Positions 1 through 16,468 of a DNA stretch of 16,468 nucleotides are shown here, piece after piece (position 1 is the first letter of the stretch; every line of letters begins with the position of its first letter). Made by a program: the position numbers and the translations under genes. Source of the DNA: Flavobacteriaceae bacterium (GTDB lineage: Bacteria > Bacteroidota > Bacteroidia > Flavobacteriales > Flavobacteriaceae); NCBI GenBank assembly GCA_023301205.1, contig JALZVC010000248.1, forward strand, positions 1-16,468, given 5' to 3'. The notes under the pieces are model-generated. The model searched no databases. It worked only from the letters and a program-made list of their open reading frames with translations, and was not told where the DNA came from.

Positions 1-118
1 CATAATCCCCTAACAAAATAATGCTAAGAAATGTTCTTGTTGAAATTAAATTTAAAACGCAATATAATAAATTAATTAACACATTCTTGTTGTTTTTATA
101 TGTTTTTTAAGGTACAAC
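1..118. other. Left flank, no gene seen
   Basis: This is AT-rich sequence outside the insertion sequence. The nine-base string TTCTTGTTG occurs twice (about 33-41 and 85-93), which I take as chance. AGGTA at 110-114 also occurs at 1526-1530, just outside the right end of the insertion sequence, so it could be part of a target-site duplication. No coding signal is visible. Confidence 0.4.
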
Positions 119-137
119 CACAGCCATCCGAAAGTTT
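119..137 (+). repeat. Left terminal inverted repeat of the IS
   Basis: The 19-base sequence CACAGCCATCCGAAAGTTT matches the reverse complement of 1507-1525 at 18 of 19 positions. The single difference is T versus C at the ninth base. Similarity stops immediately inside the repeat, which marks it as a defined end. Confidence 0.85.
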
Positions 138-196
138 ATAATTTATAATAGTTTGAGAATCCCTTATTTTTGGTTTGCAGACTAAAAATAATTTTC

Positions 197-1432
197 TTGG
201 GACTCTTCAAGCATACTAAGAATACGAACATACTTTTAATCCGTCAAATTATTAATTTAGTACCTCGATGGATGCTTACCCGTTGTGGTGAAATATATGA
301 TTCAGACAAAGGTTATAGCAAATTTTAAGACCTATGACCAATTTGTAGCTTTAACTTTCGGACAGCTTAATAAATGTTTTACATTGAACGATATTTCTAC
401 TGGTATTGGGGTGTCTCAAACCTTTATAGCAGACCTAGGTCTTTCTCAAAGTCCAGCACGCTCTACGATGAGCGATGGCAATAAAAAGTGTAATTATAAA
501 GTATTTTAGATGCTCTCCCTTAGGCTGTTAAAACACTATGGTACTATTTTATCTAAGCGTCATAAAGGTTATATCATAGAAGAAATTTAAGAACAAAGTA
601 TAAAACTGATCGACAGTAGTATCATAAGTCTATATTTATCAATAATTAATTGGGCAAAGTTTCGGACAGCTAAAGGCGGAATTAAAATACAGACCTATTG
701 GGGTGATAGTATGATGCTAACCAGCGTTTTAAATATAACAGAAGCTAAACTTCACCATAGATATGGTTTAAAGCAATTGATATTTACTAAAGGTACTATA
801 ATAGTAGAAGACAGAGCCTATTTTGATTTTGATTTAATGCTGCAAAGAATAAAGGCCGAAATTCTTTTTGTAACACTAATAAAGACAAACACAGTGTATC
901 AAGCCATAAAAGAACTAGAGCTCCTTGAGTGTTCTGATCAAGACATACTCAAAGACGAAATCATAAGCTTAACAGTTTATAAAGCAGTAGATGTAAGCAT
1001 CAATAATGAGTTTTTACTAATAGTTCACGGATATAAAGAGGATTAAAACAAAGTGATTATTATTACTAATCAGTTAGATTGGACAGCTAGAACTATCGCA
1101 GATTTATATAAGAAACGCTGGGATATAGAGCGTTTCTTTAAAGCTGTCAAACAACATTCACAAATAAAAACATTTATAGGTACAAGTGAAAACGCAGTAA
1201 AATCACAGATATATATATTGCATTAATGTACTATTTTTTGCATCAACTCATCGAAAGAACTATAGCAAATAAAAATTACGAGTTTTTAAATTTTGTAGAG
1301 AAAATAAGAATTTGCCTTAGTTTTTACTTCACCTTAGACTATGCCTGCAATCACGTAGGAGAAAGGGCTAAAAAAGTAATGCAAAAAACACAATCAGAAC
1401 TAAACTATCAAACAGACTTATTTTCTGGCTAA
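197..1432 (+). pseudogene. IS4-family (DDE) transposase, multiply disrupted
   Basis: Read across frames this is one transposase of about 410 codons. The N-terminal part (GLFKHTKNTN... VPRWMLTR) begins at a TTG at 197 where an ATG is expected. An extra T in the T-run at 323-326 shifts the frame before FKTYDQFVALTFGQL, a region resembling the DUF4372 N-terminal domain. In-frame stops follow at 507-509, 588-590 and 1044-1046, with homology continuing in the same frame past each. About two extra bases in an AT run near 1209-1220 shift the frame again, and the C-terminus ends at 1432. The catalytic triad is still encoded: Asp at 612-614 (LIDSS), Asp at 810-812 (VEDRAY) and Glu at 1128-1130 (YKKRWDIERFFKAVK, an exact Y-2-R-3-E-6-K spacing). 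The pattern is point decay of a once-intact gene. Family assignment is secure; subgroup is not. Confidence 0.88.
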
Positions 1433-1441
1433 TTTTAAAAG

Positions 1442-1481
1442 TAACCCCTATATATATATATATATATATATATAGGGGTTA
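1442..1481. repeat. 40-bp perfect palindrome with (TA)13 core
   Basis: TAACCCC, then thirteen TA units (1449-1474), then GGGGTTA. All 40 bases are self-complementary. It begins nine bases after the transposase stop and lies inside the IS right end. As RNA it would fold into one long hairpin capped by a CCCC/GGGG clamp at the base, on either strand. A T-run typical of an intrinsic terminator is absent. It could insulate the element from neighbouring transcription or be a slippage-expanded version of a shorter IS hairpin. Confidence 0.8.
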
Positions 1482-1506
1482 TAAAGAGTTTATGCGGAAA
1501 GTTGAA

Positions 1507-1525
1507 AAACTTTCGGGTGGCTGTG
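1507..1525 (-). repeat. Right terminal inverted repeat of the IS
   Basis: Reverse complement of the left repeat with one mismatch. It overlaps a small local hairpin (GAAAGTT at 1497-1503, loop GAAA, AACTTTC at 1508-1514). The IS ends 74 bases before the stop codon of the neighbouring minus-strand lipoprotein gene, so the insertion did not damage that gene. Confidence 0.85.
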
Positions 1526-1599
1526 AGGTATAAGTAAACTTATTCTATTCAATTATCTGTCTCTTTTATTAAACCGTAATTTTCATGATTTTTAAAGAA

Positions 1600-4500
1600 T
1601 TAATTGATTTTAAATAATTGAATTGGCGCATTATTATTTATAGCTACAAGATAAAGTTGATTAGCTATTTGAAGTTCTTCAAGATCGGTGACATTATGAG
1701 GTACAGATAGCCCACTTTTTAACATGGAAACGGCTTTAAAATCACCTTTCCCGTCATTGATTAAAACTAATCCATTACTTGCATCATTACGGGGTGTTTC
1801 TACTTCAGAGTCATACAGATTTCCGGCAAGAATAATATCAAGATAGCCATCCTTATTTATATCTTTAATGATAAAATCATTTATGGAAGATATTTGCGCT
1901 AGTCTTGGGAGCGGTGTTGTTTTCCATGTTTCGCTTCCTCTATTCTCAATATACACACTTGCAAATGTTTGCGCTTTTAAATGGAGGGCCTCATCAAGTT
2001 TTTGTTTTCCTAAGATGTCTACTAAACTTGCTTTAGCAAAAGCGTCATAGGTTTCAAATTTTTCCTTAATAAAAGGCATTTGTTGTGAAGAACATTCTCG
2101 CCCTCTTAGCGGATATTTTTCTCCATCATCTTCATAGGTAAGTATAATATCGCCGGTATTATTTTTGTCAAAATCATCATAATAAAGATCGAAAGTTGTC
2201 TCTGGGGTAGCTTTGTATTTGTAATTTAAACCTAAATTACCAGCAATATAATCCATATCGCCATCTCCATCAAAATCACCTTGAGCAATACTATACCACC
2301 AGCCATGGGTGTCTTTTAAGCCCAATGTTTCTGAAATATCTGAAAACTGTCCATTGTTATTTTTTAAGACTAATAAAGGCATCCATTCACCACTCACTAA
2401 TAAGTCTTTAGCTCCGTCTTGGTCGAAGTCTGTCCATAATGCAGTTGTAACAAGACCAGGTGTTAGTAATTGTGGAGCTAAATCTTGGGTTACATCTGTA
2501 AATTGCCCTTCGTTATTCTGTAATAAATAGCTTCTAGGTGCTTTTGGGTAAGAGCCTGGTACAATACGCCCCCCTATAAACAGGTCTATGTCACCATCAT
2601 TATCATAATCTTCAGGTGCTAGTGTGCCTCCACTTGTGAGCATTTTTGGTAAAGCATTAGTCGTTTTGTTAAAAATGCCACTACCGTCATTAAGGTAGAG
2701 GCGGTCATGTAGTGCTGGATCATCCAGCGCAAATTCATTTCCACCACTTACCACATAAAGGTCTTGATCTCCATCGCCATCTGCGTCAAAAAACGCGGCG
2801 TCAATATCTTCAGTATTACGATCAGCACTCCAAGTTTTATCGCTTTGGTTCACAAATGTTCCATCAACTTGTTGCATATAGAGTTTAGCTGTAAAGCCTT
2901 TTGCTCCTCCTATAAATAGATCGTCTAGTCCATCTGCATTGACATCTCCTTTTGCTGAGGCAGGCCCCAAGGTTGACATTTTGTGAGGTAATAAAATTTC
3001 TTTTTCAAAATCATTGTATTCATTTTCTTTATGCTCGTGCTGTAGCGTTTTAATGGCTACTTTAGTAAACCACTGGTCTTTATTTTTATCTTTACTATAC
3101 GTGTCCTTTTTTCTATCTGTATAGGAAACTTTTAATGTTTGATTTCCCTGTACATTGTTTAATTGTTGTTTCGTTCCATCTGGCCATAAAATGGTTACTT
3201 TCTTAATGGGTTTATTACTTTGTAATCCAAAATGGACTACATCTGCAACAGAGGATAAATACCCTCTAGTGAGGTAATGCTCTTGCATTTGTAGGTTGTT
3301 TTCTTCTTCGATAATAATTCGTGTTCCTAGACCTGATTTGTTTTTTGGTCCCCCATCTATTTTTATATTTAAAAAATTATTTGAATCTTGTTTTTCTTGA
3401 TTATTTTGATAGATAAAAGTTTCGTTGTCAATATTAGAGATTACAATATCAAGATCTCCATCATTATCTAAATCTCCATATGCAGCTCCGTTTGAAAAAG
3501 ATGCTTCTGTAAATCCCCAGTCTGCAGATTTATTTTCGAAGCCAAGGTCTCCTGTGTTTCTAAATACATAATTTTTAACCGGAACTTCTGGCATTTCAGC
3601 AAGTATTTTTCGCATATACTTAATTTGCTTTTGTGGGTCCTGTTCTATCGAATCAAGCAACATTTTTTTACGTTTAATAAAATCGTTGTTACGTGCTTCT
3701 TTGCGCAAACCATTAGTCATTAATAGATCCTTTTTACCATCGTTATCAAAGTCTGCCCAAAGTGGCGACCAACTCCAATCTGTACTGGACAGTCCAGTAA
3801 GTTGAGACACTTCGCTAAAACTACCGTCTCCGTTATTCATCTGTAAGGTGTTCATCATATACTGATGATGTAGGCCATTATCTACCGCTTTGTAAAATCG
3901 TTCTGTACTCATTCCGGACATATTTGTTTTTATACGGTAGTTATCTTCTGCCACCATATCTGCTACCATAATATCAAGATGTCCATCATTATTAAAATCT
4001 GCAATATCAGAACCCATTGAGAAATTAGAGATGTGCTTAACGCGCTCCTTTATTTGTTCGCTAAACGTTCCATTTTGGTTGTTTATGTAGAGGTAGTCTT
4101 TTTCTTGAAAATCATTGCATACATAAAGATCTGGCCAGCCATCATCGTTTACATCGCCGGTAGAGACACTTAAACCATAGCCTATACTATTGCCTATAAT
4201 ACCTGATTCTTCACTAATATCTTTATAAAAACCGTCGTCGTTTCTATATAACTTGTCTCCCGTTAGTGGATTACGATTAGCGATAGCGTCAAAAAAAGTA
4301 TTTTTTAGGATGGGGGTAATAGAGTGGTTGAGTAAAAATAGGTCTAAATCACCATCTCTATCAAAATCAAAAAAGGAAGCTTGTGATGAATAACTAGGGT
4401 CATCAATGCCGTATTCTTTTGCACGTTCAGTAAAGGTAAGGTTGCCATTATTTACAAAAAGCTCATTACGCCTTTTTTGATCATTAAATTTTCCTGAATA

Positions 4501-4932
4501 ACTTACGTAAATATCAAGAAAACCATCATTGTTAATATCTACCATCGTGGTACCTGTATTCCAGGATCTTTTTCCGCCTACACCCGCTAAGCGACCTATT
4601 TCTTCAAACTCCATATTACCCTTATTAAGGTACAAATGATTAGGTCCAAAATTTGCCGTAAAATATAGATCTATTAATCCATCATTATTTATATCTCCCA
4701 GAGAAACGCCACCTCCGTTATGCAGGTATTGATAGGTTAAAATATTCATCTGTTTATTTTCTGGAACAGTGTTATTAAAAACAACCCCAGATTTATCTGA
4801 TGATACCTTGTTAAATAATGGGGTGGACGCTAATGCAGTATCTTGCTGAGCGTTTTTCTTTTCTTCTGGTGAGGAACAACTTATTAGGGGTATTACCAGT
4901 AATAAAAAATAATATTGTGTGTGAATTTTCAT
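1600..4932 (-). CDS. VCBS/FG-GAP repeat lipoprotein with ASPIC/UnbV domain (CRTAC1-like)
   Basis: 1110 residues, probably a surface-displayed, calcium-binding outer-membrane lipoprotein. A signal peptide II ends at a lipobox (LISC, Cys19), followed by SSPEEKK, an acidic start of the kind that sends Bacteroidota lipoproteins to the surface. Seven DxDxDG-type FG-GAP motifs start near residues 80, 132, 189, 260, 312, 394 and 487. An ASPIC/UnbV domain spans about 518-604 (GLGTRI, RGYLSS, HFGL, WPDGT). Six more motifs follow near 663, 716, 775, 835, 886 and 1024, plus a weaker one at about 920. This suggests two beta-propellers around the ASPIC domain. The RGREC-SSQQMP stretch (943-953) is, as I recall, typical of large Bacteroidota members often found beside SusCD pairs; none is adjacent here. 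The start lies 31 bases after the HTTM gene, so the two are probably cotranscribed. The molecular function is unknown. The ATG is fixed by the signal peptide; no Shine-Dalgarno is visible. Confidence 0.9.
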   Translation of the reverse strand: MKIHTQYYFLLLVIPLISCSSPEEKKNAQQDTALASTPLFNKVSSDKSGVVFNNTVPENKQMNILTYQYLHNGGGVSLGDINNDGLIDLYFTANFGPNHLYLNKGNMEFEEIGRLAGVGGKRSWNTGTTMVDINNDGFLDIYVSYSGKFNDQKRRNELFVNNGNLTFTERAKEYGIDDPSYSSQASFFDFDRDGDLDLFLLNHSITPILKNTFFDAIANRNPLTGDKLYRNDDGFYKDISEESGIIGNSIGYGLSVSTGDVNDDGWPDLYVCNDFQEKDYLYINNQNGTFSEQIKERVKHISNFSMGSDIADFNNDGHLDIMVADMVAEDNYRIKTNMSGMSTERFYKAVDNGLHHQYMMNTLQMNNGDGSFSEVSQLTGLSSTDWSWSPLWADFDNDGKKDLLMTNGLRKEARNNDFIKRKKMLLDSIEQDPQKQIKYMRKILAEMPEVPVKNYVFRNTGDLGFENKSADWGFTEASFSNGAAYGDLDNDGDLDIVISNIDNETFIYQNNQEKQDSNNFLNIKIDGGPKNKSGLGTRIIIEEENNLQMQEHYLTRGYLSSVADVVHFGLQSNKPIKKVTILWPDGTKQQLNNVQGNQTLKVSYTDRKKDTYSKDKNKDQWFTKVAIKTLQHEHKENEYNDFEKEILLPHKMSTLGPASAKGDVNADGLDDLFIGGAKGFTAKLYMQQVDGTFVNQSDKTWSADRNTEDIDAAFFDADGDGDQDLYVVSGGNEFALDDPALHDRLYLNDGSGIFNKTTNALPKMLTSGGTLAPEDYDNDGDIDLFIGGRIVPGSYPKAPRSYLLQNNEGQFTDVTQDLAPQLLTPGLVTTALWTDFDQDGAKDLLVSGEWMPLLVLKNNNGQFSDISETLGLKDTHGWWYSIAQGDFDGDGDMDYIAGNLGLNYKYKATPETTFDLYYDDFDKNNTGDIILTYEDDGEKYPLRGRECSSQQMPFIKEKFETYDAFAKASLVDILGKQKLDEALHLKAQTFASVYIENRGSETWKTTPLPRLAQISSINDFIIKDINKDGYLDIILAGNLYDSEVETPRNDASNGLVLINDGKGDFKAVSMLKSGLSVPHNVTDLEELQIANQLYLVAINNNAPIQLFKIN

Positions 4933-4963
4933 TAGTATAAAATTTAATCTTTATTATGTGTTG

Positions 4964-6304
4964 TTATTGTTTAATTTCTTCGAGAGGTGCTACCCAATGT
5001 TCGGTATCGAAAGGATTCAGGTTTAACGAGGTAATATCTATAGTACTGTCAAAAATATATTGAGCAGGTCTTCCATTTAAAGAAACTTTTAATTTAGATT
5101 TTATTTGTACAGTGTCCATTTTTTTATTTGTCAAGGAGTGTTCTTTAAGAAATTCTGCAAATTGAAATGCAGCTTTAGGATCATAGCCTAATAATGTTAT
5201 CTGGTCCTTGTTCATGTTATAACTTCTAAAATCTGTGGGATAAATAATTTTATTTTTAATATCCCATACCTTAAATTCAAGGGTGTCTAGCAAACGTGCT
5301 TGAATTTTCATTCGCCAAGCAAATCTTTGCCCATGTGCTGTCCATTCTACATTTCCTGGAAATAAATTATGCCTTAGGGGTAATGCTAACTGTAAAAAAA
5401 AATAAGCAGCAAAGCCAAAAATAAGCGTTTTTGTAAGAACAGAATCTTCTTTTTTGCTGGCAATCTCATAGGTAGGTTTGTTAAATAGTTTTCTTGATAC
5501 ATATTTTGCAACCTGGTGTGGGTCTAAAAAGACTACTAGTGCTACCATCATTAAGTAGGGAAAAATATTGATATCATCAAAAAGCCACGCATTTGTTATA
5601 TTAAAAAATATAGCAGCCGCTACTCCTATCTTTCTAAATTTTGGACTAAACAAAACTAAACCAATGCAAATGTCAAAAAATAACCCACCATAAGTAACAA
5701 AATAGACCATAAAATCTGAAGTAAGAAAAGATCCCAAAAAGCTATGTTCTGCTTTGTTTCTTAAAAAGATGCGAGCCGGTTGTTGTGCAAAAAGCCAGTC
5801 ACTATTAAGTTTTGCAATGCCACCAAAAAAGTAAACAATTACTAGCTGCAATTTTAATAGTAGTAAATGCCAGTATCGCACTGGATTTTTTTCAGTGGGT
5901 TCCGTTTTTTTAATTGATAATTTATGGTCAGCTGGAATAAAAATCATCAAAAAAGATAATAAGCATACTAGATACAAATGGTTGTTGTAATAGGCTTTGT
6001 CTAATAGGAAAATGTAGGTGAAACCGATGAAGAAAAACAGTGTGGCTTTAAGGTAATGCTTGCCTAAAGTAATAAGGATGCTTGCCACTAGAAGTCCTAT
6101 AATTAGTGCAACCATAAAGAATTTTGGGAGCGGTTTTAAAAATGGTGCAAATTCATAATAAAATTGTACTTCAGGGTTTAAAAGGAAAATATCCACAAAA
6201 TCTATGCGCAGCAGATAAAGCATTTCCCAAATCATAGATAACCCAAAGCCAATTCTGAATATTGCCAGTGAACTTCCATTAATTTCTAGGTTAAGTATTT
6301 TCAT
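4964..6304 (-). CDS. HTTM-domain membrane protein, vitamin K-dependent gamma-carboxylase homologue
   Basis: 446 residues. The N-terminal two-thirds hold several hydrophobic segments (roughly 12-32, 62-80, 86-101, 108-124, 146-162, 199-219, 226-242, 248-260, then 292-310), followed by a soluble C-terminal part. Landmarks of the carboxylase/HTTM family are present: DKAYYNNHLYL (His109), aligning from memory with the human Asn159/His160 region; GGIAKLNSDW (Lys165), aligning with the region of the human catalytic base Lys218; and WTAHGQRFAWRM (321-332), a conserved motif after the membrane domain. The human enzyme uses vitamin K hydroquinone, CO2 and O2 to carboxylate glutamates. Flavobacteria make menaquinone, so a quinol is available. 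Bacterial homologues are mostly uncharacterised, and a Leptospira relative has been reported with altered activity, so carboxylation is only an inference. The gene precedes the ASPIC/VCBS lipoprotein gene by 31 bases. No clear promoter is seen upstream. Confidence 0.85.
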   Translation of the reverse strand: MKILNLEINGSSLAIFRIGFGLSMIWEMLYLLRIDFVDIFLLNPEVQFYYEFAPFLKPLPKFFMVALIIGLLVASILITLGKHYLKATLFFFIGFTYIFLLDKAYYNNHLYLVCLLSFLMIFIPADHKLSIKKTEPTEKNPVRYWHLLLLKLQLVIVYFFGGIAKLNSDWLFAQQPARIFLRNKAEHSFLGSFLTSDFMVYFVTYGGLFFDICIGLVLFSPKFRKIGVAAAIFFNITNAWLFDDINIFPYLMMVALVVFLDPHQVAKYVSRKLFNKPTYEIASKKEDSVLTKTLIFGFAAYFFLQLALPLRHNLFPGNVEWTAHGQRFAWRMKIQARLLDTLEFKVWDIKNKIIYPTDFRSYNMNKDQITLLGYDPKAAFQFAEFLKEHSLTNKKMDTVQIKSKLKVSLNGRPAQYIFDSTIDITSLNLNPFDTEHWVAPLEEIKQ

Positions 6305-6749
6305 GCTTACAATATATAAAAATCCTGTAAATCATCAAGAGTTAAGTTTGTAATTGACGCCATATATTTGATAACGTTCTTTAGAAAATAGATAGCTCTT
6401 GATAGTTTTACAAGTTACGACATTGTAGTTATAGCAGAGATGTTTTCTTATTAAGAAATAGAAAAGTGAATAGGCATTTGTTGTAAGATTTAAATAAAAA
6501 CTTAATAAAGTATTTAGACCTGCGTAGATGAAAAATTTAAAAGAGATGATTAATAACTTAAAGCACTTTTTATACTATACAGCCTAATGCATTTGCGGAT
6601 GCCCAAAATATTCTAAGCTACAGAGAAAAATGGCAAACAAAAAGCATCCTTAAAATAATACCGTTTCTATAAATAGCTCGGTTATATTTTTTAAGGCTAA
6701 ATGCTTAAAAAATTAGTGATAATACTTTAAGGATATGAGAAATTTGTTT
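6305..6749. other. 445-bp intergenic region, promoter side of the HTTM unit
   Basis: This AT-rich stretch must hold the end of the 530-residue protein's transcript and probably the promoter of the HTTM-lipoprotein unit. No TAnnTTTG-type flavobacterial promoter element is found on the minus strand. ATCAAGAG at 6334-6341 is repeated inverted at 6396-6403, 30-100 bases before the HTTM start. A 9-bp A/T-rich hairpin (TTTTTTAAG 6687-6695, CTTAAAAAA 6704-6712) lies 38 bases after the stop at 6750 and is a weak terminator candidate. A 19-codon plus-strand reading frame at 6528-6587 is too short to support as a gene. Confidence 0.4.
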
Positions 6750-8342
6750 TTACTGAATATTGAGTTTTTTGATAACCGTACCTGCGTCGCTATTAATTTT
6801 TAAAAAATAAACTCCAGAGGAAGTTTGCGACTGTATATTAAGTGTGACCGTATTTGTATTTAAGTTTTCTATATTTTTTGTATACACAATTTTACCAGAA
6901 ACATCGTAAATTTCCATTGCTAAAGCTCCGTAAAAAATGGAATTTAATGAAAGATTAAAAACTCCATTACTTGGGTTAGGAAAAACAGAAACATTGTTTT
7001 CAGTGGTATCACTTACGCTTAAAGTAGGAGAGTCTTGCATTAAAATTCTATATCCATCACAAGTACCTAATATGAGATCCATAAATCCATCATTGTTTAT
7101 ATCTATAAATTCTTGATCATAATTAGATATATGCCAATCTTGATCATTTCCTGCGTATGGGTCAACTAGATTTCCAGAGTTTAAGCCTTCGTTCTCAAAA
7201 AGAACAAAAGTTCTTACGCCTCCAGCTTGTCCAGTATCTGTAGATGTCTCACAAGGTGGCTCATCTGTGTCCACGCTAGCAATAGTAACATCTAGATCTC
7301 CATCACCATCCAGATCAACCATTTTAACATTACCACCCCAAACATTAGTTCTGCTAGATGATATGATTTGTTGGTCCATTTCAACGCTTATGTCTTGAGT
7401 AGCGCCAGTAATAACATTTACATAATCCTGGCCGTCATCAACTTCATAAAAATCAAGTAGCCCATCATTATTTAAATCACCAGCTGTAAACATATAAGGA
7501 GTAGCTCCAGGGAATTTAAAAAAGTTTGTAAAAGTTCCATCTCCATTATTAAATAATGCAATGGTACCTTGAACATTAAATGGAGCAATTGGGCCAAGAC
7601 CAAGGTTTTTGATAATATCTAAATCATCATCACCATCTACATCGTGAAATTCAACGCCTGTGCCAAAACTTGAATTTCTTAAATCTCCCATTCTAGTTTC
7701 AGATTCTTCTGTAAAAAATCCAGTACCATCATTTATAAATAAAACGTCTCTAGCTAAACCTGAACTTGCATAATTTACCATATATAGATCATTTGCATTG
7801 TTTCCAGTTAAATCTCCAGCCCAACCTGCGCAAAATTGAATAATTTCTGTAGTGACAATTGGTAATCTTGTAGCGGACTCATCAATAAATCCTTGCCAGT
7901 TACCAAAACCATTTTCTCCTTGATTTATAAATAGTTTAGGTTGGTTCTCAAAGGTGTTAATTACAAATATATCTAGCCATTCATCTCCATTTACGTCTAC
8001 AGCGATTACATCTCTTGCGTCTGTATTACTTGATAAGAACTCAGGTGCAAGTGTGTCAGTTCGATCTGTTAAAGTGCCATTTTCATTAATAAAAAGTAAA
8101 TCTGTTTTTGCACCCGGCGTAGAAAAAGGTATCTTTCTAACAACAATCATATCCATGAGCCCGTCTCTGTTAAAATCTCCAATTACTAGATCTTTTTCCA
8201 TGTCATCCACGAGATTAGTATCGTCATTGTCATTTACATTAGTAACAACGATACGTTGATCTGTTTGGTCAATAAAGTCAATCCATTGTGAATAACCCGT
8301 CATTGAAATTAGTAGAAGCGAAAGTAGTAAAATATGTTTCAT
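6750..8342 (-). CDS. Secreted FG-GAP/VCBS seven-repeat propeller with T9SS type A sorting domain
   Basis: 530 residues. A cleavable signal peptide (MKHILLLSLLLISMTGYSQ, cut at about residue 19) leads into a protein built on seven FG-GAP/calcium-loop motifs at about 56, 116, 177, 234, 289, 343 and 414. That count equals the blades of one seven-bladed propeller. The third (DLTGNNAND) and second (DVNGDEWLD) are the most degenerate. The last 80 residues are a T9SS type A sorting domain: VFPNPSNG at 453-460, then YDVSGK, then SGVYFLKI, ending KKLNIQ. The protein should cross the inner membrane by Sec and the outer membrane by T9SS, ending secreted or anchored at the surface. No enzyme domain is visible, so a binding or scaffold role is the simplest reading. 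It is separated from the HTTM unit by 445 bases and is likely its own transcript. Confidence 0.92.
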   Translation of the reverse strand: MKHILLLSLLLISMTGYSQWIDFIDQTDQRIVVTNVNDNDDTNLVDDMEKDLVIGDFNRDGLMDMIVVRKIPFSTPGAKTDLLFINENGTLTDRTDTLAPEFLSSNTDARDVIAVDVNGDEWLDIFVINTFENQPKLFINQGENGFGNWQGFIDESATRLPIVTTEIIQFCAGWAGDLTGNNANDLYMVNYASSGLARDVLFINDGTGFFTEESETRMGDLRNSSFGTGVEFHDVDGDDDLDIIKNLGLGPIAPFNVQGTIALFNNGDGTFTNFFKFPGATPYMFTAGDLNNDGLLDFYEVDDGQDYVNVITGATQDISVEMDQQIISSSRTNVWGGNVKMVDLDGDGDLDVTIASVDTDEPPCETSTDTGQAGGVRTFVLFENEGLNSGNLVDPYAGNDQDWHISNYDQEFIDINNDGFMDLILGTCDGYRILMQDSPTLSVSDTTENNVSVFPNPSNGVFNLSLNSIFYGALAMEIYDVSGKIVYTKNIENLNTNTVTLNIQSQTSSGVYFLKINSDAGTVIKKLNIQ

Positions 8343-8801
8343 AGCAATATTTATAAAAATAGTTAAGTAAATTTATCGATTTTTTAATGAATATTTCGTT
8401 TATATTAGAATTTTGTTAGAGTTATATATAATATTGGTGCTCGAATATAAATTAATAAGATGATGCAAAAGCTAATTTAAATCAATAATTTAGAGATTTA
8501 GCACTACAATTAAATAATGGAAATTAAACGACTCTCAGGGAAACATAAAAATAGCAAGGTTCTTATACTACCTAAAAAATTACTGGCAGATCTTACTTTC
8601 TAAAAGTTATTTCAGAAAAGAAATACAAGAGAATAATAACGCTAGCATTACTCCATAGATCACGGATCGAGTTGCATATTACATTCCATTTAATAGTACA
8701 TACCAGATATTTTAAATCTTCTTTAAAACTATTCTATTTATTTACTGATATCATTTGGTTCTCAAAAAGTACTTTGTGCTATCTGGACAATTATAAGATT
8801 A
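8343..8801. other. 459-bp intergenic region
   Basis: The left part is the 5' side of the secreted propeller gene, and the right part is the 3' side of the DUF6095 gene. I see no convincing promoter or GC-rich terminator. A 28-codon plus-strand reading frame (8517-8603, MEIKRLSGKHKNSK... ADLTF) has natural-looking composition and is followed by more lysine/arginine-rich sequence interrupted by stops. It could be a small gene or a relic, but I recognise no family. AAAGTACTTT at 8766-8775 is a short palindrome. Confidence 0.4.
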
Positions 8802-9023
8802 TTAAAAAATGGCCTTCATAAATGTTTTAAGCGCTTTAAAAATGCAGAAAATAGCACCAGCGCCCAATAGTATTCCAATACTAAAGAAAAGATAAAATGA
8901 CCAATGTCCTTTATTCAAGAAAGACAAGGTTAACAAATATGGGCTTAAAAACAATAGTGGTAACGCAATAGCTAGGAATTTTATTCCCTTAGCAAGAAGT
9001 TGTTTATCTGAATGTTTAGTCAT
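8802..9023 (-). CDS. DUF6095 family small membrane protein
   Basis: 73 residues with two hydrophobic segments (about 14-34 and 42-64) separated by a short polar loop (NKGHWS) and flanked by basic ends (KHSDKQ, KALKTFMK). This is a typical small two-pass inner-membrane protein. Sequence and position directly after murQ match the flavobacterial DUF6095 family, whose function is unknown. The start codon lies inside the end of murQ (8-base overlap), which supports translational coupling and this ATG. It is the last gene of the receptor-DUF4249-murQ run. No clear terminator follows. Confidence 0.8.
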   Translation of the reverse strand: MTKHSDKQLLAKGIKFLAIALPLLFLSPYLLTLSFLNKGHWSFYLFFSIGILLGAGAIFCIFKALKTFMKAIF

Positions 9024-9831
9024 TTTTAACGGTATTAATTGCTGCTCTTACACTTTTATGGGTCTGCAATAAATTTGTCGCAGTTGCCTTATCTACATTA
9101 ATTTCGCCCATAATCATACGAATACCGCGGTCTACTAGTTTATTATTACTCAACTGCATATCGACCATTTTATTTCCTTTAATACGATCTAGTTGGATCA
9201 TCGCGGTTGTAGAAATCATATTCAATACTAATTTTTGAGCCGTACCCGCTTTCATTCTTGAGCTACCTGTAACAAATTCTGGCCCCACCACTACAACTAC
9301 TGGAAAAGTTGCGGTACGTGCTAACGGACTACCTTCATTGCACGTAATACAGCCCGTAGCAATACCATTGCTATTACACGCTTTAAGAGCACCTATTACG
9401 TATGGGGTGGTTCCAGAAGCAGCTATACCAATAACAATGTCTGCTTCGGAAATGTGCTGGACTTGCAAATCTAGCCAACCTTGATTGGCACTATCTTCTG
9501 CAAATTCTACAGCTTCTCTAATAGCGGTGTCACCTCCTGCAATAAGTCCAACTACTAATCCGTGGTCTACACCAAAAGTAGGAGGGCATTCGCTTGCATC
9601 TACAATACCAAGTCTTCCGCTAGTGCCAGCTCCAATGTAAAAGAGACGGCCTCCATTCTTTAATTTTTCAGAAACTATTGTAGTTAACTTTTCAATCTGC
9701 GGAAGTGCCTTTTCTACGGCTAAAGGAACGGTTTTATCTTCTGTGTTGATAGCAACTAGAATTTCTTTTACGCTCATTTTTTCAATCGCAGTATAATGAG
9801 AATCAGCTTCAGTGGTTTTTGTGAATTCCAT
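9016..9831 (-). CDS. murQ: N-acetylmuramic acid 6-phosphate etherase
   Basis: 271 residues. MurQ cleaves the lactyl ether of MurNAc 6-phosphate, giving GlcNAc 6-phosphate and D-lactate, in cytoplasmic recycling of the cell wall. The SIS sugar-phosphate fold is clear: YIGAGTSGRLGIVDASECPP at 65-84 is the family signature, with ASGTTPYV (138-145) and VTGSSRMKAGTAQK (187-200) further on. Glu81 (in ASECPP) and Glu112 (in FAEDSANQG) align with the catalytic glutamates described for E. coli MurQ (Glu83 and Glu114, from memory). The length is slightly below the E. coli enzyme (about 298) because of a shorter C-terminal tail. It starts 22 bases after the DUF4249 gene and overlaps the DUF6095 gene, so it appears to be third in a four-gene operon. 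The kinase and anhydro-sugar enzymes that would feed it are not in this window. Confidence 0.96.
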   Translation of the reverse strand: MEFTKTTEADSHYTAIEKMSVKEILVAINTEDKTVPLAVEKALPQIEKLTTIVSEKLKNGGRLFYIGAGTSGRLGIVDASECPPTFGVDHGLVVGLIAGGDTAIREAVEFAEDSANQGWLDLQVQHISEADIVIGIAASGTTPYVIGALKACNSNGIATGCITCNEGSPLARTATFPVVVVVGPEFVTGSSRMKAGTAQKLVLNMISTTAMIQLDRIKGNKMVDMQLSNNKLVDRGIRMIMGEINVDKATATNLLQTHKSVRAAINTVKND

Positions 9832-9853
9832 AAGAAATAAGAAAGATAATAAA

Positions 9854-10660
9854 TTATTGAACAGTGTAAGTTAAGGTATCTCTTTCTGAAACTCTGAAAT
9901 ATCCTAATGGAAAATTATCTGGATTTGTTACATTAATAACGTTCCCTCTTACTGTTGCGGGCTGTGTCTCAAAAGGACCTCCTCCATCGTCTGAGCCTTG
10001 TTGTAGCAAAACGAACTGAAAATCATAATAATTTCTATCCACACCATCTATTTCAAACAAAACTTGATCACCTGGTTGTAAATCATCTGCTGTATATAAT
10101 GCAAAAATTCGATTACCATCAAAAAATTCGTCTGAAGCGATATCTATATTTCTTCCTCTGATAGAAGAAATCTGAAAGAAATAAAAATTATCTTCATCTG
10201 CTGGATCATTAAAGAAGGCCTTTAGTTCAATTTCGTCTCCAAAAAAGCCACCTTCATTATCTTGTTCTACGATATCCTCCCATGGTACTACACTTTCTAT
10301 TTGCTCTGTGGCTGTAAAAGTTTCGCCTTGATAGCTAATTGTAATTGTGTAGTCGACATTGTCTTCTGGTATTAGGTTGGTATCAGTAATGTACCTGCCA
10401 TTTCCAGTATGCGTAAATGAGAACACGTTGTTATTGCTATCTGTAATGATGACAAGGGCGTCCGTTACGGGAGGGATTTCGTTATCAAAAAACGGACTTG
10501 TTAGTGATAAGGTGATTTCTGTGCTCCCTCCTTCATTGTTTAACAGACGAAACATAGTAGCTTCTACTACAAGTTTTGGTTCACCTTCATTTAAGTCTAA
10601 GTCAATGACGTCCTCACAAGAGAGTAGTAATAGGCTAAAAAATATAAGTAGTATTCTCAT
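9854..10660 (-). CDS. DUF4249 domain outer-membrane lipoprotein
   Basis: 268 residues. A short lipoprotein signal (MRILLIFFSLLLLSC, lipobox LLSC, Cys15) is followed by the acidic CEDVIDLDLNEGEPKLVVEA, the usual opening of DUF4249 proteins. The first half (about 30-125) looks like an Ig-like beta domain with repeated strand patterns (VTDALVIITDSNNNVFSF, YTITISYQGETFTA). The second half is acidic and carries aromatic-rich strands ending in GYFRVSERDTLTYTV. DUF4249 lipoproteins pair with TonB-dependent receptors and are thought to act like SusD, capping or feeding the channel; no ligand can be read from sequence. The gene starts 3 bases after the receptor's stop, so the two are cotranscribed and probably form one complex. 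It is the shorter type of DUF4249 protein and looks intact. Confidence 0.88.
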   Translation of the reverse strand: MRILLIFFSLLLLSCEDVIDLDLNEGEPKLVVEATMFRLLNNEGGSTEITLSLTSPFFDNEIPPVTDALVIITDSNNNVFSFTHTGNGRYITDTNLIPEDNVDYTITISYQGETFTATEQIESVVPWEDIVEQDNEGGFFGDEIELKAFFNDPADEDNFYFFQISSIRGRNIDIASDEFFDGNRIFALYTADDLQPGDQVLFEIDGVDRNYYDFQFVLLQQGSDDGGGPFETQPATVRGNVINVTNPDNFPLGYFRVSERDTLTYTVQ

Positions 10661-10663
10661 AGC

Positions 10664-13045
10664 TTAAAATTTAAAATTGTAAGTAATTGCTGGGATGATA
10701 CCAAAAATGGATAATCGTATTGCTTCATTTTGACCAGTACTTGTATTTTCTCTAAAGGATATTGAAGCTGCATTTCTTCTATTGTATATATTATAAGCAC
10801 TAAACACCCACTCGCTTCTCCAAGCTTTTTTTCTAGAACTATCAAATTGTCTACTCTTTTTTGGTATATAGGTTGCAGATATGTCCATTCTATGGAAAGA
10901 AGATAATCGACTTGCATTCCTAGCTTCGAAAACTGGGATAACTTGACCTTCAAAGATATATTGCCCTTCGGGAAATGTAAATGGTAAGCCTGATTGAATA
11001 ATGAAATTAGCGCCAAAAGACCATTTTTTAGAAAATTGGTACTGGGCCGTAACCGAAATGTCATGTGTTTTATCCCAAGCCGAATTATACCATTCCCCAT
11101 TATTAATTCCTATTTCTTGTGGCGATCTTCCTGGGGTGCGTTGTTCACTTTTTGAAAGTGTATATGAAAACCAGCCAGTCAATCTTCCTTGTGTTTTTCT
11201 AGCTAAGAATTCTATTCCATAAGATCTTGCTTCTCCGCTAAGTAAAATTTGTTCCACGGCGTCGTTTGCTATTAAGTCTGCACCATCCACATAATCTAAT
11301 CTGTTTTGTGTTTTCTTATAGTAGCTTTCTACTTCAAAAGTAAAATCTTTAAAGGTTTTAAAATAGCCAAGAGCAACTTGATCTCCTATTTGTGGATCTA
11401 TAAATCGACCACTTGGGGCATAGATGTCAAATGGGGTAGGGGATGTTGTATTACTTATTAAATGGATGTATTGGGCTGTTCTATTATAGCTTGCCTTTAT
11501 AGCAGCGTCATCTGCTAGTAGATAAGAAATTGCTAAACGCGGTTCGAGATTAGCAAATGCTTTTATAGTTTCAGTCCTATCAAAACTTTCTGTACCAATA
11601 GGCTCTGCATCTTGATAAATATCTAAATTTTCATCATAAAGAATAGGGTTGTTGTCAGCATAGATATTTAGCGAATCTTGACCTAATCTATTAAAAGTAG
11701 ATAAACGGAGACCTGCTTGTATGTTTAAACGATCGTTAATTTCTAATTCTCCATCTATATAAAATGCGTTTTCAAAACCGAATTTCTTAGTAAGTGAAAA
11801 AGGGTTTATTCCAGAAGATGCTGTTGTGGGCTCTATATCACCTGGATTAAAAGAATAATAAATACTATTTAATCCATATTGTAATTTTGTTTTTTCTGAA
11901 ATGTAATGGGTAAAGTCATATTTGAGATTTAAGTTTTGAATCCCACTGTCAAATTGAAATTCTACAAATTTTAATTGGAGGTTGTAAAAATAATCTGAAT
12001 ATATGGCAGAAAGATTACTGAAGAGCTTATCTGAAAACAAATGGTTCCATCTTAAATTTACTGTAGAATTTCCGAAGATATTTTCAAAACTATCTGAAAT
12101 TTCAAACTTGTCTCTACCAGAGTATCCAGAAAGAAATAGTTTGTTCTTGTCATCTATTTTGTAGCTTACTTTTGCATTTAAATCAAAAAACTTGGCAATG
12201 TTGTCATTGTCAAATAAAGGCAAAAATAGATGGGCATAACTGCTACGACCACCTACTAAAAATGAAACTTTATCCTTTACTATTGGACCTTCTATAAGCA
12301 ATCTGCTCGCTACTAAGCCAAGACCCCCTGTAATTTTCAATTCTTTACTATTTCCATCCTTTTGGTAAATATCTAATACAGACGCGATCCTGCCACCAAA
12401 ACGTGCTGGGATTCCTCCTTTATAGAGGGTTAAATCTTTTATGGCGTCTGGATTAAATACAGAGAAAAAACCAAAGAGGTGCGAAGAATTGAATAAGGTA
12501 GCTTCATCTAATAAAACTAAATTTTGACCTGCGCCACCACCTCTTACATTAAATCCACTAGCGCCTTCACCAGCGTTAGTGACGCCAGGCAGTAAGGTGA
12601 TTGCTTGAATAACATCTGCTTCGCCTAAAACTACTGGAATTTTTTTTATGCTGGAAGATTTGAGTGTGTTGGCACTCATTTGAGGATCTCGAATATTCAG
12701 TTTTTCACTGTCTGTTGTAATAATTACTTCAGTTAGCGATTCTAAATTTTCTGAGAGTGATATGTTTTTTGTTATAGAAGCCTGTAAGTCAATCGTTAAA
12801 ATTTCCGAAGTGTAGCCAATGCTACTGTATTGAATTTTATGGCTTCCTGCGGGTAAAGTCATGGAGTAAAAACCATAGACGTTCGTAACAGTTCCTGCGT
12901 TTTGTGAAGGTACTAGCACATTGATGCCAATAAGTGTCTCCCCCGAATCTTTATCTGATACTGTGCCGCTTATGGTAAATTTCTCTTGTGCAACAGCGGT
13001 TATTGAAGAAATAATAAATAGAATGGTAAAGAAATAATATTTCAT
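10664..13045 (-). CDS. TonB-dependent receptor with carboxypeptidase-regulatory-like domain
   Basis: 793 residues, an outer-membrane active transporter. The signal peptide ends near residue 19 (ITAVAQ). A CarboxypepD-reg-like domain fills about 22-105 (ISGTVSDKDSGETLIGINV, then GFYSMTLPAG, then SSIGY). The plug domain follows at about 115-235, with VIQAITLLPGV (145-155), GFNVRGGGAGQNLVLLD (164-180) and GGIPARFGGRIASVLDI (210-226). The rest is a 22-strand-type beta barrel ending in aromatic NFKF. Plug residues are close to the class paired with DUF4249 lipoproteins, and that partner follows after 3 bases. Energy comes from TonB-ExbBD encoded elsewhere. The substrate is unknown; murQ downstream allows a guess at a peptidoglycan fragment. 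The start is set by the signal peptide and is only 5 bases from the icd terminator hairpin. A 147-codon overlapping frame at 10657-11100 on the same strand is a shadow. Confidence 0.93.
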   Translation of the reverse strand: MKYYFFTILFIISSITAVAQEKFTISGTVSDKDSGETLIGINVLVPSQNAGTVTNVYGFYSMTLPAGSHKIQYSSIGYTSEILTIDLQASITKNISLSENLESLTEVIITTDSEKLNIRDPQMSANTLKSSSIKKIPVVLGEADVIQAITLLPGVTNAGEGASGFNVRGGGAGQNLVLLDEATLFNSSHLFGFFSVFNPDAIKDLTLYKGGIPARFGGRIASVLDIYQKDGNSKELKITGGLGLVASRLLIEGPIVKDKVSFLVGGRSSYAHLFLPLFDNDNIAKFFDLNAKVSYKIDDKNKLFLSGYSGRDKFEISDSFENIFGNSTVNLRWNHLFSDKLFSNLSAIYSDYFYNLQLKFVEFQFDSGIQNLNLKYDFTHYISEKTKLQYGLNSIYYSFNPGDIEPTTASSGINPFSLTKKFGFENAFYIDGELEINDRLNIQAGLRLSTFNRLGQDSLNIYADNNPILYDENLDIYQDAEPIGTESFDRTETIKAFANLEPRLAISYLLADDAAIKASYNRTAQYIHLISNTTSPTPFDIYAPSGRFIDPQIGDQVALGYFKTFKDFTFEVESYYKKTQNRLDYVDGADLIANDAVEQILLSGEARSYGIEFLARKTQGRLTGWFSYTLSKSEQRTPGRSPQEIGINNGEWYNSAWDKTHDISVTAQYQFSKKWSFGANFIIQSGLPFTFPEGQYIFEGQVIPVFEARNASRLSSFHRMDISATYIPKKSRQFDSSRKKAWRSEWVFSAYNIYNRRNAASISFRENTSTGQNEAIRLSIFGIIPAITYNFKF

Positions 13046-13050
13046 ATAAG

Positions 13051-13080
13051 AAAGGCCTCCAATTATAACTGAAGGCCTTT
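13051..13080 (-). terminator. icd intrinsic terminator, abutting the receptor start codon
   Basis: On the minus strand AAAGGCCTTC (13080-13071), a 10-base loop, and GGAGGCCTTT (13060-13051) form a 10-bp stem with one G-U pair, followed by CTTAT. It lies 7 bases after the icd stop. The receptor start codon at 13043-13045 begins 5 bases after the hairpin. It should end icd transcripts; any read-through message would carry the hairpin right at the receptor's ribosome-binding region. Confidence 0.75.
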
Positions 13081-13087
13081 GGGTTTA

Positions 13088-15793
<2,706 letters not shown>

Positions 15794-15828
15794 AAAAAAA
15801 GCGTCCTTCATATAAGATGAAGGACGCT
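15794..15828 (-). terminator. Strong intrinsic terminator after rplS
   Basis: On the minus strand AGCGTCCTTCAT (15828-15817), a 5-base loop (CTTAT) and ATGAAGGACGCT (15811-15800) form a perfect 12-bp stem running directly into a seven-T tract (15800-15794, sharing the last stem base). It begins about 21 bases after the rplS stop. A shorter T-run on the other side (15832-15836) gives weak bidirectional potential. Confidence 0.93.
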
Positions 15829-15849
15829 GAGTTTTTAACAAATATGCTA

Positions 15850-16200
15850 CTAGTATCTTTGTTCTTTGATACGAGCTTTCTTACCTGTAAGGCCTCTAAA
15901 GTAGTATATACGTTTTCTACGTACACTACCTTTTTTATTGATTTCAACTTTCTGTAATGCTGGCATATTCACTGGGAATATACGCTCAACGCCTACAGTA
16001 CCAGACATTTTTCTGATAGTAAAGGTCTTTAATAATCCAGTACCTCTTACTTGAATTACAACACCTCTAAAAAACTGTGTTCTTGTTTTTTCTCCTTCAC
16101 GAATCTCATAAAACACAGTGATAGTATCACCTGCAGAGAATTCTGGAAAATCTTTTTTGGTTACAAATTCGTCTTGAACAAATTTTACTAACTCTTCCAT
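15850..16200 (-). CDS. rplS: 50S ribosomal protein L19
   Basis: 116 residues, matching the usual bacterial L19 length (about 115). L19 sits at the interface of the large and small ribosomal subunits. Recognisable blocks run through the whole protein: FSAGDTITVFYEIREGEKTR (21-40), QFFRGVVIQVRGTG, FTIRKMSGTVGVERIFPVNMP, and the basic C-terminus SVRRKRIYYFRGLTGKKARI. The gene is complete, with a strong terminator 21 bases downstream. In many bacteria rplS sits with trmD or rpsP; neither is adjacent here, and the gene upstream ends in a T9SS-like sequence, so rplS appears to be transcribed alone. The start follows an AT-rich leader without a Shine-Dalgarno sequence near the ATG, as usual in this group. 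Confidence 0.98.
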   Translation of the reverse strand: MEELVKFVQDEFVTKKDFPEFSAGDTITVFYEIREGEKTRTQFFRGVVIQVRGTGLLKTFTIRKMSGTVGVERIFPVNMPALQKVEINKKGSVRRKRIYYFRGLTGKKARIKEQRY

Positions 16201-16296
16201 GATTAATAATTTATTATTTACTCTCTAACAACATTCACGATTCTCGCCAGAGGTTGGAACAAAGGATTGCTTTTTCTTCTAAAAGTTAAGCGGCTG

Positions 16297-16304
16297 CAAA
16301 AATA
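16297..16304 (-). promoter_or_regulatory. Candidate rplS promoter -7 element
   Basis: TATTTTTG on the minus strand matches the Bacteroidota consensus TAnnTTTG. No TTG -33 element lies at the expected spacing upstream. If used, transcription would start about 90 bases before the rplS ATG, leaving a leader long enough for a regulatory structure. Confidence 0.35.
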
Positions 16305-16355
16305 AGTAATTTTATGAGTTATTAGCTGTGAGTTGTGAGTTTTTTTTCTGAAATA

Positions 16356-16468
16356 TTATTCTTTAATAAGTTGCATACTATGCACACCTAAGTTTGTTTC
16401 TATAAAGACAAAATAAGTAGCGCTTGCCATTTCAGAAACAGAATAGTAATTCTCTTGTATTTCTGAAA
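16356..16468 (-). CDS. Partial CDS: C-terminal end of a probable T9SS-exported protein
   Basis: An open frame enters from the right edge and ends at TAA (16358-16356), leaving 36 residues. They read SEIQENYYSVSEMASATYFV, then FIETNLGVHSMQLIKE. The pattern (V/L)S-x-(L/M)-ASATYFV-(I)-x-T-x-x-G-x-x-S-x-x-(L/F)-IK is that of the last two strands of a T9SS type A sorting domain. The sorting domain directs transport across the outer membrane; the cargo lies outside the window, so its function is unknown. The gene ends 156 bases before the rplS ATG, with no strong hairpin between them. The fragment is short, so the assignment is moderate. Confidence 0.65.
   Translation of the reverse strand, partial: SEIQENYYSVSEMASATYFVFIETNLGVHSMQLIKE

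Follow-up and report, generated by a model that had tools for sequence, protein, structure and literature searches.

Does a bacterial relative of the human vitamin K-dependent carboxylase GGCX act on the exported protein encoded beside it? The question is raised by a 16,468-nucleotide stretch of DNA (the window in what follows; positions 1 to 16,468 of the forward strand of contig JALZVC010000248.1, assembly GCA_023301205.1) from a Flavobacteriaceae bacterium, in which the gene for a 446-aa HTTM, or vitamin K gamma-carboxylase-like, membrane protein (4964..6304, minus strand) is followed by that for a 1110-aa FG-GAP/ASPIC lipoprotein (1600..4932, minus strand). As an earlier note on this DNA had described, the two genes share a strand, lie 31 bp apart from the HTTM stop to the lipoprotein start (4933..4963) and are preceded by a 445-bp non-coding stretch (6305..6749, minus strand), the presumed promoter region from which they may be cotranscribed. 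We tentatively interpret the pair, at somewhat less than an even chance, as a two-gene module in which a GGCX-fold enzyme acts on a co-encoded exported lipoprotein, the likeliest chemistry being the conversion of one Glu residue, or a few, to gamma-carboxyglutamate (Gla). The HTTM protein would reside in the inner membrane, its active site facing the periplasm, would depend on menaquinol and O2, and would act on the lipoprotein before the latter reached the cell surface.

The proposed carboxylase homology of the HTTM protein is borne out by the presence of both the HTTM membrane domain (Pfam PF05090, E 1.7e-59) and the VKGC lumenal domain (PF22777, E 6e-30), as in human GGCX, which is itself matched at E 5.8e-31; NCBIfam returned no family for either the HTTM protein or the lipoprotein at E 0.01. 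Among 78 HTTM sequences compared after open reading frames (ORFs) under 380 aa and duplicates had been dropped, the catalytic base K165 (GGCX Lys218) and H109 (His160) are kept in all 78. The residues named for the naphthoquinone pocket of GGCX (PMC12589487), V210, W223, F286, F294, F299 and M401 in GGCX numbering, are all six identical in the window protein (W170, F234/F242/F248 and M332 among them), and the catalytic Lys and quinone-pocket residues are strictly kept in 78 of 78 HTTMs. The two patterns with which 49 HTTM loci were found, Q[RY]F[AS]WRMK and [YIL]YNNHLYL, are biased towards Q326, M332, K333 and an NNH motif; they do not include K218, W223 or the Phe pocket. By its sequence, the window HTTM is thus a GGCX-family protein with an intact catalytic base and intact quinone-pocket residues at the positions checked, and there are strong grounds for regarding its fold and active site as those of a competent enzyme. 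Flavobacteriaceae use menaquinone and, since the pocket is also conserved, menaquinol would be the reductant; we accordingly read the HTTM protein as a putative menaquinol-dependent modifying enzyme linked to the lipoprotein. As a membrane protein which has a domain of lumenal type and whose gene directly precedes that of an exported protein, HTTM might instead aid the export or folding of its neighbour with no covalent change, but the strict conservation of catalytic Lys and quinone pocket points to chemistry and makes such a role very improbable.

The presumptive partner has the three marks of a Bacteroidota ASPIC/UnbV FG-GAP lipoprotein, whose length and domains it shares: FG-GAP repeats (FG-GAP_3 in 10 stretches), a UnbV_ASPIC domain (E 3.7e-19) and a lipobox, LISC, read from the N-terminus and followed by SSPEE. 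Acidic residues after the lipobox are a rule for surface exposure, and because both features are present, the lipoprotein is probably surface-exposed. The claim that it carries at least 13 calcium-loop motifs holds: the sequence has 13 D.[DN].[DN]G loops, whereas 1000 shuffled versions average 0.36 and never exceed 3. Its structure model is of moderate quality only (pLDDT 69.6), too uncertain for its Glu residues to be placed.

The linkage of the two genes is best seen among close relatives. HTTM matches are common in the family (115 of 149 genomes), but members of the close clade are rarely met: of 395 phylum genomes, the window's own is the sole one with a match at E 1e-60 or better, and in an order sample 10 of 395 genomes have one, the nine others at 31-35% identity. 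A lipoprotein-type gene is immediately adjacent to HTTM in 8 of the 49 loci and near it in 9. All five loci at or above 52% identity to the window HTTM (a Dokdonia metagenome-assembled genome (MAG), two Ulvibacter, Altibacter and a Flavobacteriaceae MAG) show the tandem order of the window, HTTM ahead of lipoprotein on a shared strand, and 5-58 bp separate the HTTM stop from the first in-frame ATG of the lipoprotein. Counted from the other side, 251 of 397 family genomes contain at least one ASPIC/UnbV FG-GAP lipoprotein at E 1e-200 or better, in a search that scored two candidates per genome and returned 30 loci, with part of the matches inspected. Lipoprotein genes at or above 59% identity occur at six places, the window included, five of them with an HTTM within ~1.5 kb, unlike the 53 less similar loci (24 and 29 fetched in two lipoprotein searches; L122 and L123 repeat L094 and L098), none of which has one within that distance. 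That last count excludes three less similar lipoproteins that adjoin an HTTM (L100, L102, L117), from genomes picked for having an HTTM near a lipoprotein. Among the ORFs of the 49 HTTM loci, 7 of the 47 assigned to HTTM at E 1e-40 or better adjoin a lipoprotein gene, versus 9 of the 547 others, and the p value of 8e-5 is indicative only, the sequences being related.

In a lipoprotein tree (FastTree only), most linked genes fall in one clade of 10, of which 8 are adjacent to an HTTM, one has a gene between and one lacks an HTTM beside it; the sister group is linked in 0 of 12 members, and the linkage label as a whole needs 7 changes. The HTTM tree omits L039 and other short ORFs, has long branches for L179, L053 and L045, and includes an L081 sequence that is 44% filled. 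In it, the window protein and five close relatives make up one clade with support of 100/98. Explaining adjacency on this tree takes 6 changes, of which well-supported branches dictate 5, so that adjacency must have been gained or lost repeatedly. Besides the tandem form, the lipoprotein gene comes first on the same strand in L042, the genes diverge in L053 and L081, and in L045 one gene lies between them. The lipoprotein of L081 belongs to the window's clade, and the HTTM divergent from it, of which a contig end holds a 204-aa fragment, groups with those of Kordia, Lacinutrix and Gilvibacter. A further, distant HTTM is convergent with a VCBS gene in L179. The evidence for HTTM-lipoprotein linkage among close relatives is good: adjacency, which the earlier note had proposed counting across genomes, is conserved in several genera, though not obligate.

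Several observations nevertheless weigh against a functional module, some of them on the linkage itself. At 37-45% identity to the window HTTM, only 2 of 15 HTTMs are adjacent to such a lipoprotein (L042, L081), with L045 near, and 0 of 38 less similar loci (whole genomes, flanks up to 1.5 kb) adjoin one. A universal pairing of HTTM with this lipoprotein type is ruled out, there being none in L001, L002, L007-L033 and L083-L091; in L089 the neighbour is a 468-aa protein with 4 motifs and no match to the lipoprotein at the cut-off used. Moreover, one genome assembled as a single contig (G078, locus L178) keeps the lipoprotein ortholog with no HTTM beside it, which means that linkage is not obligate: two divergent VCBS genes lie downstream of a yaaA-like gene with no HTTM between them, where Altibacter at the matching place has VCBS, HTTM and VCBS, and three HTTM matches occur elsewhere in the G078 genome.

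Such exceptions would suit a conserved neighbourhood kept by common regulation, or by joint travel in one block, with no biochemical link. The tandem clade is small and its members related, so that it may reflect one event, and insertion-sequence-like fragments (285..1432, plus strand; DUF4372 at E 2.6e-6 and a weak DDE match below cut-off) adjoin the window pair just downstream of the lipoprotein gene. We consider this explanation unlikely, given that adjacency recurs in the divergent, convergent and reversed arrangements above, involves HTTMs from different parts of the tree, and is retained where the pair is found intact at a different locus. In three other loci, yaaA precedes the pair: L034 (where Pfam identifies YaaA), L035 and, judged from gene lengths, L036. 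The window's genome carries yaaA on a separate contig, where the ~600 bp downstream of it hold no HTTM, and its pair adjoins an IDH-TBDR-DUF4249-MurQ-DUF6095 block instead; in Ulvibacter antarcticus, three other VCBS genes come after that block. From these different sites, the window pair appears to have moved as a unit. Downstream of the lipoprotein gene, L034-L037 and L178 encode proteins of 300-1367 aa, which start similarly in L034-L037 and in L034-L036 have ends that by eye resemble tails of the type IX secretion system (T9SS).

Other points against modification of the lipoprotein concern the active site and the substrate residues. In the Glu side-chain pocket (N159, H160 and Y395), N108 and H109 are kept, with N107 matching N158, and human Tyr395 is Gln in the window protein (Q326). 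Met402 is likewise replaced by Lys (K333), Lys217 by Ala and Asp220 by Asn, and R331, found in 75 of the 78 HTTMs, also differs from the human residue near this pocket. The HTTM model aligns to GGCX residues 52-512 only, with the rest of the propeptide-binding domain and the arch absent (PMC12589487). On the substrate side, seven linked orthologs were compared with 66 paralogs that lack an HTTM in the fetched flanks (the comparison did without L099, L102 and L117, treated L124 separately and had no L100 in its alignment). Fourteen Glu positions are fully conserved in the linked orthologs, of which just two, E344 and E111 (the latter Asp in 63 of 66 paralogs), are private to them. At 2 of 14, against 51 of 464 when conserved positions of every residue type are counted, this is no excess; the G078 lipoprotein, with no adjacent HTTM, keeps both. 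The Glu-rich stretches 541-551 and 632-645, which had been put forward as possible substrates, do exist, but they are not special to HTTM-linked lipoproteins: at the positions of E551, E636 and E645, the 66 unlinked paralogs also have Glu in 89%, 98% and 68% of cases, respectively, which rules these stretches out as pair-specific substrates. A substrate Glu common to all paralogs may still be compatible with this comparison.

The altered residues near the Glu pocket and the want of private Glu would also fit a linked pair in which the HTTM protein would use menaquinol to alter a lipid or small molecule and the lipoprotein would then bind or handle it, as would the place of a related HTTM in an iron-regulated TonB receptor gene group. 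Human GGCX, however, the solved relative from both sequence and fold searches, acts on proteins, and its lumenal domain is kept here; we regard a small-molecule substrate as possible, if doubtful, and retain carboxylation of the lipoprotein as the tentative preference.

The quinone cycle supplies a further point against that preference. VKOR is matched in neither the window's genome (G000), in its sequenced part (the genome is ~60% complete), nor G063, G101, G078 or G873, five of the seven genomes searched, and G063, G101 and G078 are 99-100% complete. The pair thus occurs with no VKOR match in G063, G101 and G873, and VKOR is matched in G872, where the pair is adjacent, and in G876, which has the one-gene-apart form. 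Nor is an exported partner universal for HTTM, since another subfamily adjoins ribF. Three HTTMs occur in the sequenced part of the window's genome: the window's own, one between imelysin and TonB receptor genes, and one beside ribF. To the imelysin-HTTM-TonB receptor subfamily belong L001/L182 and, by neighbour lengths, L009, L010, L013, L015 and others; its HTTMs have Y or F at 395, V at 401 and M at 402, against Q, M and K in the window protein. The ribF-adjoining subfamily comprises L002/L183 and, by neighbour starts and lengths, L011, L012, L017 and others, and in relatives the HTTM of this type also adjoins a gene that may be serS. In the residue comparison above, both groups were assigned by neighbour lengths, with Pfam run on few members. 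Elsewhere (L069:7672-9951, L071:7702-9951), an FG-GAP protein of ~750 aa, with a T9SS tail in L069, the one of the two run against Pfam, ends 4 bp before another HTTM. A broader proposal, that these genes represent a bacterial Gla system in which menaquinol-driven gamma-carboxylation of a calcium-loop lipoprotein would proceed in the absence of a full propeptide-binding domain and apparently independently of VKOR, with enzymes diversified by partner (VCBS, imelysin, FG-GAP/T9SS), strikes us as quite unlikely.

The directly upstream neighbour of the pair, a 530-aa FG-GAP protein with a T9SS C-terminal signal (6750..8342, minus strand), is not beside the pair in the five tandem relatives and so is not a conserved part of it. 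Promoter scans found 34 candidates where 36.2 were expected, with Bacteroidota-type patterns at chance level, and the 445-bp stretch has no promoter match above chance. A search of the window against Rfam returned only the L19-Flavobacteria ribosomal protein leader (RF03130; 16229-16256, minus strand), before the L19 gene.

Compared with known systems, the pair resembles human GGCX in domain content and departs from it in its shorter enzyme, in the substitutions listed and in its company, VKOR being matched in 2 of the 7 genomes searched; its substrate is a candidate only. A GGCX homolog of Leptospira is reportedly of altered activity. As a bacterial protein of the GGCX family, mentioned as such in PMC4555120, it offers a parallel. 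The imelysin-HTTM-TonB receptor group, known from Riemerella and represented by the paralog L182 in this genome, likewise sets an HTTM beside an exported lipoprotein; there, however, the partner is an imelysin, and the imelysin, HTTM and TonB genes figure in a table of Fur-regulated genes under iron restriction (PMC5609570). The open-licence literature searched (titles and abstract starts) yielded no substrate for a bacterial GGCX homolog, nor any paper linking HTTM and ASPIC/VCBS. The pair therefore supplies a concrete, genetically linked and exported candidate partner for the common bacterial homologs of GGCX and, being present in Ulvibacter litoralis, Ulvibacter antarcticus and Altibacter lentus, makes the question of their substrate testable, with an answer that would bear on the origin of vitamin K-dependent carboxylation.
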